From: Candidatus Coproplasma excrementipullorum
Lineage (GTDB): Bacteria > Bacillota > Clostridia > Christensenellales > Borkfalkiaceae
Direction: 5' to 3'
Length of the DNA stretch: 55,620 nucleotides
NCBI GenBank assembly: GCA_018714165.1
Contig: DVNU01000050.1
Coordinates: forward strand, 1 to 55,620
Part shown: one piece after another, positions 11,334-49,975 of the stretch
Numbering within the stretch: position 1 is the stretch's first letter
Layout of the letters: the number at the start of each line of letters is the position of its first letter
Position numbers and translations under genes: made by a program
Notes under the pieces: model-generated
Database searches by the model: none
The model's input: only the letters and a program-made list of their open reading frames with translations
What the model was told of the DNA's origin: nothing

Positions 11334-12857
11334 ATGGGTGAGAGATTGTATACGGTACAAAAGGTTAAAAAGAAATACACGCTTTTCACGGGCAAACAGC
11401 TGCTGTGGCTCATTCTGCCCATCGTCATCGAGCAGATTTTTTCGACGTCTCTGGGCATGTTCGACTCTATGATGGTCTCCAGCATAGATGAATATGGCTA
11501 TGCCAACCTCGCCGTTGGCAACGTTGACCAATTAAACAACCTTGTAATACAGCTCTTTTCGGCGTTTGCCACGGGCGGCGCGATAATAACTTCGCAGTAC
11601 CTCGGCGCTAAGGATATAGAGAGCGCTCAAAAGAGCGCCAAACACATGCTCGTCATTGTGCTCATTTTCTCGCTTATAATCGCCGGCCTCTGCCTCGCGC
11701 TCAATCCCTATCTTTTACAGCTCTTCTACGGCGATGTCAGCGAAGACGTCATGGCCAACCAGCGCATTTACTTTTACATAACGGCGGCGTCCTTCCCGCT
11801 TATAGGCATATTCAACGGCAGCGCGGCTCTCCTCCGCATACAGCGCAAGAGCATGTCCACCATGGTCAGCTCCGGCGCGAGCTGCGTTATAAATATAGGT
11901 CTCAACGCCCTCTTTATCTGGGTTTTCAATATGGGCGTTGCCGGCGCGGCGCTTGCAACCTTAATTGCCCGCGCAATACCCGCCGTGTATATGCGCGCCC
12001 TGCTCATGAGCGACAAAAACACGCTCACGGTAAAACTGTTTACAAAGTTCCGCTTCGAAGGCGCAATGGTAAAAAAGATACTCTTCCTCGCCATTCCCAG
12101 CGGTGTGGAGAGTTGCCTCTTCCAGCTCGGCAAGCTCATGACGGTTTCCTTTGTCAATTCTGGTTGCTACTATGTCTACGATGCTACACTCGGAAAGGAA
12201 GTAAACGTTCAGGGCAACGCCAACACAATCGCCAACAACCTCAACAACATTGCTTCCGTCGTTGGCAGCGGTATTGGCACATCCTGCCTGACCGTCATCG
12301 GCCAGGCAGTCGGCACAGGCGATGCCGACTGCGTAAAGTACTACATAAAAAAGATGTTCATCATCTCTTTCATCGCCAACGCCATAACGGTGGCAATCAT
12401 CATGGGCACCAGTCAATGGCTCATATACCTGTGGCAACAACCTGCCGAGGCTTACCCCATCGCGCTTAAGTGCCTCTATTTCTGCCTGTCCTTCCAATTT
12501 GTTACATATCCCCTGTCCTTCACCACGCCCGCAATACTCAAGGCCACGTCGGACGTAAAGTATGTGATGTGGTCGGCCATATCGTCCATGATAATCATGC
12601 GCGTGGGCCTGTGTTTCTTGTTCACCAGCGACGCGCTGACGCCATGGCTTATGTCCACCTTCGGCTTCAAGTTCGAGTTCGGCGCCATGGGCTACTGGAT
12701 AGGCATGTGCGCGGACTGGTGCGTGCGCTCCATACTCTTCGTTGCCCGCCTTTTAACCGGCCGCTGGAAGAAGGCTTCTGGAATGTTGAAAAACGACAAC
12801 AGCGAAGAAAGGGACAATGAAGAGGAAAGCGAAGAAGTAAAAGTTAAGAGTGAATAG
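11334..12857 (+). CDS. MATE family efflux transporter
   Basis: 507 aa polytopic protein; LLWLILPIVIEQIFSTSLGMFDSMMVSSID, ATGGAIITSQYLGAKD. Confidence 0.9.
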   Translation: MGERLYTVQKVKKKYTLFTGKQLLWLILPIVIEQIFSTSLGMFDSMMVSSIDEYGYANLAVGNVDQLNNLVIQLFSAFATGGAIITSQYLGAKDIESAQKSAKHMLVIVLIFSLIIAGLCLALNPYLLQLFYGDVSEDVMANQRIYFYITAASFPLIGIFNGSAALLRIQRKSMSTMVSSGASCVINIGLNALFIWVFNMGVAGAALATLIARAIPAVYMRALLMSDKNTLTVKLFTKFRFEGAMVKKILFLAIPSGVESCLFQLGKLMTVSFVNSGCYYVYDATLGKEVNVQGNANTIANNLNNIASVVGSGIGTSCLTVIGQAVGTGDADCVKYYIKKMFIISFIANAITVAIIMGTSQWLIYLWQQPAEAYPIALKCLYFCLSFQFVTYPLSFTTPAILKATSDVKYVMWSAISSMIIMRVGLCFLFTSDALTPWLMSTFGFKFEFGAMGYWIGMCADWCVRSILFVARLLTGRWKKASGMLKNDNSEERDNEEESEEVKVKSE

Positions 12858-12862
12858 TTGTG

Positions 12863-12943
12863 GCGGGAAGTATTTAAAAATAATACTTGCCGCAATGCAA
12901 GCATAGCTTGCAATTCATGCGCATATATTATGCGCAATTCATC
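12863..12943. repeat. mini-hairpin array (AATTCATG type)
   Basis: GCGGGAAGTATT..AATACTTGCCGC hairpin, then TGCAAGcataGCTTGCA-ATTCATG-CGCATAtatTATGCG-CAATTCAT. Confidence 0.65.
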
Positions 12944-19080: not shown

Positions 19081-19299
19081 GCGCAAGGCAGTGAAATGCC
19101 CCTTAAGCCCGATTGTAAAGGGCGTGCATTATCATAGGGGCGTGAAATGCGCATTTTCAACGCGCGTTGAGGTAAGAGATTATTATTTAAAATAATTTGT
19201 TCCGCAACGCACAGCGCAGCTGTGTATTTCACGCAGTCGCAGACTGTATTTCACGCGCCGAAGGCGTATTTCACGCAAACGCAGTTTGCATTTCACGGG
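19081..19299. repeat. mini-hairpin array B (ATTTCACG type, two arms)
   Basis: Left arm GTGAAATG x2; AT-rich centre flanked by GCGTTGAGG...CCGCAACGC; right arm CACAGcgcagCTGTG-TATTTCACG-CAGTCgcaGACTG-TATTTCACG-CGCCgaaGGCG-TATTTCACG-CAAACgcaGTTTG-CATTTCACG. Confidence 0.85.
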
Positions 19300-20386: not shown

Positions 20387-21225
20387 TGAAGATAGCATTT
20401 CGCACGCACGACCTCGGCGAAAAGGGCATTGACGGCCTGATATACCGCCTCCAACAGTATAAAATAGAGGCCGTTCAGCTCGTCGTCTATAAATTTATGG
20501 ACGGCATAAAGCAGAAGCCGGGCAGTTTATCGCCCGAAATGGCGGAATATATCGGCAAGGCCTTAAAGGGGGCGGGCGTCTCCGTCCCCCTGATAGGTGC
20601 CTACTTCAACCCCGTTCACTCCGATAAGCATAAGGTGGCCGACTGCAAGCAAACTTTCAAGGAGTATCTGCAGTACGCCAAGGTGCTTGGTTCAAACATA
20701 GTAGGCAGCGAAACTGGCTCCTTCAACGACGACAAATGGACGTACAACCCTCTCAACCGCACGGAAGAGGCCCTTCAGACGGTCATTGAAACATTCACCG
20801 AACTTGCCGACTACGCGGCCGAACAGGGAGCGTATATAGGAATGGAGGGCGCCGCGGGGCACTGCTGTTACTGCGTAAAGCAGTTGAAGCGCGCCATAGA
20901 CGGCGTCAACCGCCCCAACGTCAAGGTCATATTCGATCTTTACAACTACCTCGATATGTCCAACTATGATAAGTATATGGACATTCTCGATGAAGGCCTT
21001 GCAACCTTCGCAGGTAGAATAGTCGTGTTCCACATGAAGGACTTCGTCATAGAGGACGGCAAAGTAAAGCAGGTCGCGCCCGGCAAGGGCAACTTCGACT
21101 ATCCCGCCATACTCAAAAAGATAAAGGCCTACGATAAGGACGCCGTGCTGGTGCTTGAAGGCACCACGGGCGAGGATATTGGGCCTTCGATTGAGTTTGT
21201 AAAAAACACATGGGCGCAAGCATAA
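20386..21225 (+). CDS. sugar phosphate isomerase/epimerase (xylose isomerase-like TIM barrel)
   Basis: AP-endonuclease 2-type fold: GSNIVGSETGSF, NVKVIFDLYNYLD, VVFHMKDFVIEDGKVKQVAPGKGNFDYPAI. Confidence 0.8.
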   Translation: MKIAFRTHDLGEKGIDGLIYRLQQYKIEAVQLVVYKFMDGIKQKPGSLSPEMAEYIGKALKGAGVSVPLIGAYFNPVHSDKHKVADCKQTFKEYLQYAKVLGSNIVGSETGSFNDDKWTYNPLNRTEEALQTVIETFTELADYAAEQGAYIGMEGAAGHCCYCVKQLKRAIDGVNRPNVKVIFDLYNYLDMSNYDKYMDILDEGLATFAGRIVVFHMKDFVIEDGKVKQVAPGKGNFDYPAILKKIKAYDKDAVLVLEGTTGEDIGPSIEFVKNTWAQA

Positions 21226-21503
21226 TGCGGGCGGTGCCCGCGTGAAATGCGCGGCTATGCCGTGCGTGAAATGAAAACGGCGAGCCATTTTCGTGAAATG
21301 CCGCCTCAACTCCTCTTTTCAATTGAGTTTATCAAAGGCGGCGTGAAATGCAACCTTGTGGTTGCGTTTAGGTGAGCATCTTTGCGCCCTTGGCGCATAA
21401 TTTACGCCACAACGCACAGCGCAGCTGTGTATTTCACGCAGTCGCAGACTGTATTTCACACGCCGAAGGCGTATTTCGCGCAAACGCAGTTTGAATTTCA
21501 CCA
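21226..21503. repeat. mini-hairpin array C (4 left + 4 right units)
   Basis: GTGAAATG at 21242, 21266, 21293, 21343; ATTTCAC (one ATTTCGC) at 21431, 21453, 21473, 21495; a hairpin between each pair. Confidence 0.88.
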
Positions 21504-22410: not shown

Positions 22411-22620
22411 GCAAGTTGCGTTGAGTGAAATGCGGGCTCTGCCCGCGTGAAATACGCTTTGGCGTGTGAAATACAGTCTGCGACTGCGTGAAATACACAG
22501 CTGTGCTTGTGCGTTGTGGCAAAAATTATTATAAATATAAGTGTTTACCATAACGCAACATTTTATGTTGCATTTCACGCGCCGTAGGGGTATTTCACGC
22601 AAACGAAGTTTGCATTTCAC
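22411..22620. repeat. mini-hairpin array D (4 left + 3 right units)
   Basis: GTGAAATGCGGGCTCTGCCCGC-GTGAAATACGC..., centre GCGTTGTGG...CCATAACGC, right arm GCATTTCACG x3; left arm is the inverse of the array B/C right arm. Confidence 0.85.
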
Positions 22621-22670
22621 CCATTGCTGGCAATGCAACCAAGACTTTCGTGAAACTCTAAAATAAATAA

Positions 22671-22844
22671 CGTCGCAAGGCGAATTCATTTCGCCGCAAG
22701 CGGCCCCAATTTGTTGCGCAAGCAACCTCAGCGAGGGGAATTTGCGCGATTATATAATACGAGTGCCCTTCGGCATCGCGCAAAGGGGAGCAGGGCTCCC
22801 CGAATCACGAAAAATTGTTGCGCGTCGCCAGCGCACAATTTTTG
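22671..22844. repeat. structured intergenic element family 2, copy X
   Basis: About 175 bp aligning nearly end to end with the reverse complement of 28611-28783; multiple nested hairpins. Confidence 0.8.
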
Positions 22845-22871
22845 TGAAAAATTATTAAGGGGAAATAAAAA

Positions 22872-24021: not shown

Positions 24022-24110
24022 ACGTTGCCGTGTTCTGCCGCTTTGCCCTGTGCTTCCCTTGCGCAAGGGAGGTGACAATAAGGTATTGCGCCGCAGGCGC
24101 ACTGATACCC

Positions 24111-24241
24111 ACCGCAATGCACGCGCAGCGTGCAATTCATGCGCACAGTCAGTAAACCTCATAATATATCGCGGGCAAAGTGCGCAATTCATGAAAACGG
24201 TCTGCCGTTTTCAATTCATGCACCGCAGGTGCAATTCATTG
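24111..24241. repeat. mini-hairpin array E (AATTCATG type)
   Basis: CACGcgcaGCGTG-CAATTCATG-GCGCAC..GTGCGC-AATTCATG-AAAACGGtctgCCGTTTT-CAATTCATG-CACCgcaGGTG-CAATTCATT. Confidence 0.85.
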
Positions 24242-49800: not shown

Positions 49801-49824
49801 TATTAATAAAAATATTTCTCACCA

Positions 49825-49975
49825 CAACGCAACCTGAAAGGTTGCATTTCACGCGCCCGTTGATTAACCTTGTAATATGTCGCAGGTTGAGGGCGCAATT
49901 CACGAACGCAAAGCGTTCAATTCACGCAACCGCGAGGTTGCAATTCACGCACGACATCGCCGTGCATTTCAGGTA
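49825..49975. repeat. mini-hairpin array F (5 right-arm units)
   Basis: CAACCtgaaAGGTTG-CATTTCACG-GCGCCC..GGGCGC-AATTCACG-AACGCaaaGCGTT-CAATTCACG-CAACCgcgaGGTTG-CAATTCACG-...-CATTTCAG. Confidence 0.85.

Follow-up and report, generated by a model that had tools for sequence, protein, structure and literature searches.

A mirrored array of 7-nt words and hairpins in a clostridial uronate operon is probably a gene-less copy of an S23p-encoding interspersed element

The protein family PF05635 / TIGR02436 (23S-rRNA-intervening-sequence or four-helix-bundle protein, here called S23p) was discovered some thirty years ago within ribosomal RNA genes, and its genes are common and have no assigned function. 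The intervening sequences (IVSs) of 23S rRNA are cut by RNase III. In IVSs such as that of Coxiella, an inverted-repeat stem surrounds an open reading frame (ORF) of the S23p family, the distribution is patchy, and mobility has been suspected (PMC4990558). According to that paper, Ralph and McClelland (1993) suggested that the IVS ORF is a mobility component. The Xanthomonas protein is a homopentameric toroid, the Coxiella protein apparently is not made in vivo, and the function and origin of IVSs are still unclear after 25 years (PMC4990558).

REP/BIME elements with RAYT are intergenic hairpin mosaics with a short constant word and are copied in both orientations. The heptameric intergenic repeats form a further group, to which the cyanobacterial STRRs belong. 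They are multi-copy, have a 7-nt period, occur in both orientations, and are described as simple sequence repeats of unknown role; examples are GGGAATC / GGGGAYT in Xanthomonas and Nostoc (PMC4692102) and TAACTGA in Beggiatoaceae and cyanobacteria (PMC4679880). Terms for S23p or a four-helix protein are absent from both papers. Gut-1 entered the literature as a non-coding RNA known only from human gut DNA (PMC2864571). Gut-1 RNA, S23p with its IVSs (PMC4990558), and the heptameric repeats (PMC4692102, PMC4679880) are known separately. The present data add an association that ties together three puzzles, namely, S23p, the heptameric intergenic repeats of cyanobacteria, Xanthomonas, and Beggiatoa, and the orphan RNA Gut-1. 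No prior report of a link among the three, or of one between S23p and heptamers, was found in the open-access PMC literature.

We analyzed a 55,620-nt stretch of Candidatus Coproplasma excrementipullorum DNA (contig DVNU01000050.1 of assembly GCA_018714165.1), referred to here as the window. In DNA comparison, it is about 87% identical to a contig of Candidatus Coproplasma avicola. The focal copy occupies positions 21226 to 21503 and consists of mirrored arms built on the constant 7-nt word GTGAAAT / ATTTCAC around a conserved centre. An earlier note on this DNA had described mirrored arms with a closing centre, a hairpin in every interval, and a site between co-oriented uronate genes. All of its GTGAAAT and ATTTCAC/ATTTCGC coordinates agree with ours, each interval of the focal region does hold a hairpin, and the arms and centre are seen in the focal copy and in most other copies. 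The neighboring genes, by NCBIfam, encode KDPG aldolase (kdgA), KDG kinase (kdgK), 5-dehydro-4-deoxy-D-glucuronate isomerase (kduI), tagaturonate reductase (uxaB-like), and glucuronate isomerase (uxaC), which agrees with the setting described. The parts of the focal copy, as read from the sequence and, for the centre, also from comparison of copies, are as follows.

21226-21241, no strand assigned: outermost left hairpin, GCGGGC-GGT-GCCCGC, directly 3' of the stop codon of the upstream gene.
21242-21365, + strand: left arm, with four GTGAAAT words (21242, 21266, 21293, and 21343), each followed by a hairpin.
21249-21265, 21273-21292, 21300-21342 (long-loop), and 21350-21365, + strand: hairpins of the left arm.
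21300-21342, + strand: long-loop hairpin of the third left interval, GCCGCC(N31)GGCGGC.
21366-21414, no strand assigned: conserved centre, GTTTAGGTGAG ... TGCGCC-CTT-GGCGCA (21383-21397) ... CGCCACAACGC.
21415-21501, - strand: right arm, with hairpins at 21415-21429, 21438-21452, 21460-21472, and 21480-21494; this arm corresponds to Gut-1 on the - strand.
21431, 21453, and 21495 (ATTTCAC) and 21473 (ATTTCGC): words of the right arm.

The hairpin at 21226 to 21241 is the probable outer edge of the element. The long-loop hairpin is found in one arm only in most copies, where it adjoins the innermost hairpin. Its loop (21318-21336) contains TTCAATTGAGTTTATCAAA, which has 84% similarity to the end of the gene upstream (3' end, 21186-21204, TTCGATTGAGTTTGTAAAA); this likeness is likely a coincidence, because similar loop sequences occur in other copies. 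No S23p ORF is present in the focal copy (21226-21503).

The window contains 28 occurrences of ATTTCAC, compared with an expectation of 7.1 (maximum of 100 shuffles, 15), a four-fold enrichment, and the excess lies mostly within three elements of one uronate operon (19091-19296, 21226-21501, and 22425-22620). Besides the focal copy, the window contains the following copies and half elements.

19091-19296, no strand assigned: second copy, between the KDPG-aldolase and KDG-kinase genes, with two left and four right words found.
22425-22620, no strand assigned: third copy, 3' of kduI.
24082-24239, no strand assigned: half element belonging to a second family, whose word is AATTCAT; the plan is the same, with the long-loop hairpin included.
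12857-12942, no strand assigned: short half element of the AATTCAT family.
49820-49920, no strand assigned: half element, consisting of the centre end, innermost hairpin, ATTTCAC, long-loop hairpin, AATTCAC, and a hairpin.

The left arm of the third copy repeats right-arm modules of the other two copies in inverted form. The species' own genome holds about 25 copies of an intergenic element of about 255 bp, usually with four hairpins per arm. When 27 two-arm elements from three congeneric genomes were parsed, the commonest arrangement was 4+4 words and the median length was 255 bp. The pattern ATTTCAC-N(11-40)-ATTTCAC occurs 81 times in the 1.72-Mb assembly, compared with once for the reversed control pattern, and nearly all 81 intervals are palindromes. 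The earlier note had named words without hairpins between them as a sign against its reading. This is not what the species' own genome contains, but it is the case in unrelated genomes, in which most occurrences of the bare word pattern are due to chance or to coding repeats. The ATGAATT family, to which the half elements at 24082-24239 and 12857-12942 belong, has 85 dispersed intervals in the own genome (control, 0). These results establish the element as a dispersed family with a fixed anatomy.

The earlier note had recognized no named family with this design. Searches with Rfam model RF01706 (Gut-1) showed otherwise for one arm, with scores of 57.6 bits at 19221-19298 and 53.4 bits at 22423-22499 (cut-off, 50). 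The focal right arm (21426-21503, - strand) scored 49.9 bits against the cut-off of 50 (E value, 4.6e-08), and the left arm matched weakly on the + strand (28.6 bits). The likeness to Gut-1 RNA (Weinberg et al. 2010, PMC2864571) covers the sequence and structure of one arm, with its GUGAAAU words and three hairpins. Unlike that stand-alone half, the element here combines two mirrored arms with a centre, and some of its relatives carry a gene. The 37 matches to the model in the own genome lie largely as facing mirror pairs. Most copies show both arms and the centre, and the model spans half of this unit.

The hairpins are real. We examined 108 distinct intervals, taken from this species and two congeners. 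Of these, 77% hold a perfect stem of at least 4 bp, compared with 6% when the spacer is shuffled. Loops of 3 nt occur in 56 of the 108 intervals and are closed by C-G in 52 of the 56. On the ATTTCAC strand, 31/56 triloops are GNA and 0/56 are TNC, a strand bias relative to the word. The claim that stem sequences vary while the geometry is kept held up in 25 hairpins of 17 nt, in which 97.7% of stem cells are paired, double changes occur at 6 of 7 pairs, and 55 cells are doubly changed, compared with 18.6 in shuffles (0/500 shuffles reach 55). These 25 hairpins were chosen by length and are palindromic by selection, so the result speaks for conservation of pairing, not for its cause.

Pairing between the arms is a different matter. 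In RNA folding, the focal region proved much more stable than shuffled sequence (z = -4.6, none of 100 shuffles being as stable), but the symmetric ladder of rungs, which the earlier note had thought possible, is absent from the minimum-energy fold; there, the outer left word (about 21242-21256) pairs with the inner word of the right arm (about 21423-21437). In 14 equal-arm elements, 21 rung cells deviate from the consensus, and 0 of these are compensatory. The ladder as a folded state thus found no support from covariation or from the fold. Two elements with plain arrays fold with 45 to 50 pairs that join both arms into one long stem around the gene, and a ladder is therefore geometrically possible.

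We compared the sites of the element between related genomes, which are metagenome-assembled genomes (MAGs), several of them incomplete. The copy at contig 33:12035-12312 is missing from the orthologous gene boundary in two congeners (G001 and G080), where the flanks are about 34 nt and about 72 nt apart, respectively, compared with about 333 to 353 nt with the element. The relatives are too diverged at this empty site for a target-site duplication (TSD) to be read. At the same site, the nearest relative (G082) carries an element with another word, ACTTCAC, on one arm. The spacer that holds the focal copy is much shorter in many congeners, and the family is patchy within the genus, the Gut-1 model being positive in 4/37 genomes. 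One genome (G222) has a 230-nt element at about 10 sites 5' of different genes, in copies that are mostly 90 to 99% identical, and a near-identical copy of it was found in a genome placed in another family (G145). The G222 copies have TA at both edges, in this one family only, and their left flanks are also partly shared. The orthologous empty site, the patchy distribution, and the near-identical copies at many sites indicate that the element has inserted and dispersed.

The ATTTAGC elements of G222 and G145 (L440-L452) share an asymmetric tail, GGCATCTAAATTATACAGTCTTTATA, before the next gene and often are preceded by TTTTTGTCCCTAACTTGACAAAA. These tail and edge pieces (GGCATCTAAATTATACAGTCTTTATA, TTTTTGTCCCTAACTTGACAAAA, and TA) could be true element ends or promoter pieces.

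In other Clostridia, arrays found by DNA pattern often end beside a small ORF, which belongs to PF05635 / TIGR02436 by family matches of the own-genome copies. The own genome contains such a gene (L334; G000:C52:10831-11133) between a GTGAAAT left arm and an ATTTCAC right arm on contig 52, where it occupies the place of the centre (PF05635, 5e-27; TIGR02436, 1.8e-31). In a second S23p gene of this genome (L336, contig 7), arms with the word ATGAATT precede the gene, and the innermost hairpin and GTTGAGGTAAAAATTA lead straight to the start codon, with AGGT at what reads as the ribosome-binding position. The position of the centre in the focal copy is that of the S23p gene in gene-bearing copies, and the AGGT motif, which stands there at the ribosome-binding position, is kept in gene-less copies. 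S23p matched the solved structure 2rld (E value, 2.5e-27), an entry with five chains.

The association between arrays and S23p was apparent from both directions. Among 61 relatives, S23p scored over the cut-off in 6/7 genomes with Gut-1 arrays and in 4/54 without. Starting from DNA, a blind scan of genome and viral contigs for ATTTCAC-N-ATTTCAC-N-ATTTCAC yielded 57 hairpin arrays and 10 plain heptamer arrays. S23p was present at 9 of the former and 3 of the latter and at 0/160 (47 + 113) non-array matches. In genome contigs only, 11/63 arrays have an S23p ORF, which lies within 155 bp of the array in 10 of the 11 cases. Clustering of the ORFs within 700 bp of these 63 arrays left S23p as the sole recurrent protein family, the other large cluster being largely translated repeat; no recurrent transposase that might serve as the moving enzyme was found among them. 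Virus-borne spread was considered and set aside: 4 of 119 pattern matches in viral contigs pass the hairpin test, and at least one of them (L187) is a direct repeat.

Starting from the protein, we looked for at least three linked 7-nt words in the 400-nt flank of S23p genes, a test that replaced a one-sided word count in 300-nt flanks that was too blunt against AT-rich sequence. Linked heptamers were present at 25/36 loci of one S23p subtype (18/28 without those loci that had come via arrays) and at 10/24 of the other, compared with 2/53 segments elsewhere in the same loci and 0/60 shuffles. A period scan gave 7 in 15 loci, its multiple 14 in 10 loci, and 11 in one, and none of the other periods from 4 to 12. 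In a later set of eight S23p loci from phage and plasmid records (Nostoc, Pseudanabaena, Gloeocapsa, Planktothrix, Euhalothece, and two gut phages), six of eight were positive by the same measure and eight of eight by eye; in the two gut phage records, S23p stands beside degenerate arrays. The Nostoc flagelliforme gene, for example, lies between a run of AATTCGT repeats and a run of ACGAATT repeats. Where plain arrays lie on both sides of S23p, they are inverted in 19/22 loci. These data show that S23p genes in several phyla have inverted 7-nt-word arrays at their flanks, either plain or spaced by hairpins; the hairpin arrays of Clostridia are plain inverted arms with a hairpin between successive words. 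Some S23p genes look inserted between co-oriented or paired partners (hsdS-hsdR, cas2-cas1, and helicase-methyltransferase).

Words beside S23p genes were used to predict dispersed arrays elsewhere in the same genome. ATTTAGC arms flank S23p in four genomes; dispersed ATTTAGC arrays were found in two of these (87 and 64), the other two had only a handful of matches, which in one genome lie at the copy that holds the gene, and 0 to 1 were found in six further genomes. A prediction of ACTTCAC from G186 was borne out there (38). The word also is abundant in G051, G082, and G048, in which no matching S23p arm was seen, and strict one-word-one-gene matching is thereby ruled out. No PF05635 gene was found in the array-rich congeners G029 and G082, whose assemblies are 76% and 85% complete. 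The tie between arrays and S23p, seen DNA-first and protein-first and sharp at a period of 7 nt, thus yields predictions that mostly hold, and it provides S23p with its first concrete genomic partner.

We consider it probable that the focal feature is a copy, gene-less and MITE-like, of a selfish interspersed element, the gene-bearing form of which encodes S23p (PF05635, TIGR02436). In the mechanism that we propose, S23p would recognize the arms, by their 7-nt words or their hairpins, in the form of RNA or single-stranded DNA. That it may recognize the 7-nt word is suggested by the sequence pattern, and the word, with or without hairpins, becomes a candidate ligand for binding by S23p. The S23p fold is without known catalytic activity, so another, catalytic partner would be needed, and S23p may help a putative host or co-resident enzyme to copy the element or to insert it, chiefly at intergenic sites. 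Copies that lack the gene would be moved or maintained in trans. Insertion into an operon may be tolerated because the arms would fold out of the transcript as hairpins, like 23S IVSs. More tentatively, and with somewhat less than even confidence, we propose a class of mobile elements in which a nonenzymatic pentameric S23p, guided by inverted 7-nt arrays, moves itself and gene-less arrays, possibly through an RNA intermediate, and of which heptameric repeats, Gut-1, and 23S IVSs would be facets. The long-standing suggestion of a role for the IVS protein in mobility becomes directly testable, and there are laboratory organisms in which both 7-nt arrays and S23p occur.

The element resembles several described systems in part. 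The arrangement known from 23S IVSs, an S23p ORF inside an inverted-repeat stem, is present at L334, while the focal copy is gene-less. In contrast to IVSs, the element is intergenic and multi-copy, its arms are arrays of 7-nt words, often with hairpins, and most copies lack the gene. The S23p loci are not classical rRNA IVSs, since no rRNA match was found in 16/16 tested and the focal copy lies between uronate genes; we therefore place the element near the 23S IVS kind and not within it. Membership in REP/BIME by a conserved tetranucleotide and palindrome was rejected, as the stems vary freely and the constant word has 7 nt; among the ORFs within 700 bp of the 63 arrays, S23p recurs and no RAYT or other transposase does. 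With regard to a MITE of a DDE transposon, the arms are inverted and a gene-bearing copy exists, but its gene is S23p and not a transposase. The array is not a CRISPR array, because its spacers are palindromes and its arms are mirrored. Avd of diversity-generating retroelements (DGRs) is a distant four-helix-bundle relative of S23p (one own-genome S23p gave sub-threshold matches to Avd, 29.7 bits with a cut-off of 80, and bAvd, 24.2 bits with a cut-off of 40), but no reverse transcriptase or template repeat was seen at the array loci that were read.

The main rival to a mobile element is that S23p is an RNA-binding regulator and that it binds the arrays in mRNA leaders and between cistrons, the arrays spreading through the regulation or transcript protection that they confer. 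This would suit the location of arrays between genes of an operon and in 5' leaders, the leader of S23p among them, as well as the covariation of the stems and the strand-biased loops (GNA in 31/56 triloops, TNC in none). An RNA reader would need no inversion, however, and the mirrored arms show both strands of the word; words and copies also shift quickly between close species, whole genomes are without arrays, and the copies near the stop codon of an upstream gene share no common regulon. We regard the regulator as unlikely. Highly unlikely, in our view, is a REP/BIME-type element moved by RAYT (a Y1 HUH transposase), or a MITE of a DDE transposon, with S23p as a passenger. Hairpins that follow a short constant word in both orientations do recall REP/BIME, and dispersal with empty sites suits any transposable element, but the ORFs within 700 bp of the 63 arrays speak for S23p and against a transposase, there is no GTAG-type tetranucleotide, stem sequence is not conserved, and the element sites examined have no terminal inverted repeat beyond the words and no clear TSD.

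Template switching converts quasi-palindromes into perfect ones and can mimic covariation. The arrays could in principle be a replication artifact of this sort, in which template switching or slippage creates and keeps short palindromes and S23p genes merely lie in permissive intergenic DNA; heptamer slippage has indeed been proposed for bacterial 7-mer repeats (PMC4692102). Such a process hardly explains why the 4+4 plan is fixed, why the centre is conserved and the long-loop hairpin one-sided, why the association is specific to one protein family across phyla, or why the orientation is inverted in 19/22 loci, and we give it the least credence of all the readings. Little better placed, and still less probable than a RAYT or DDE transposase, is the view, taken in the Gut-1 entry of Rfam, that every arm is a small RNA gene in its own right. 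RF01706 matches one arm above or at its cut-off, and Weinberg et al. graded Gut-1 a certain RNA in 2010 (PMC2864571). Against this, the model describes half of a mirrored element and its matches come in facing pairs, a larger unit is evident from the two arms, the centre, and the copies that bear a gene, and the stem sequence at a given position is not conserved.

Several further observations were made during this work. S23p genes stand beside or between defence genes at five loci (L462, on a plasmid of Nostoc sp. TCL26-01, L464, L369, L372, and L373). Two loci (L050 and L053) are ATTTCAC hairpin arrays in MAGs of Akkermansia/Akkermansiaceae, a phylum other than that of Clostridia, for which contamination is possible; L050 also holds an S23p ORF 2.9 kb from the array. 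Weak PF05635 matches in congeners (L327-L330) apparently are DGR Avd genes beside reverse transcriptase-like and repeat regions, with no arrays. The window also contains a second dispersed intergenic repeat, CAATTTGTTGCGCAAGCAACCTCAGCG...GCGCGATTATATAATA...GGAGCAGGGCTCCCC (22640-22870), which is unrelated to the hairpin array. This repeat also is found 5' of kduI at L289, L295, L304, and L312, and it recurs at the same and at other gene boundaries in several species of the genus.
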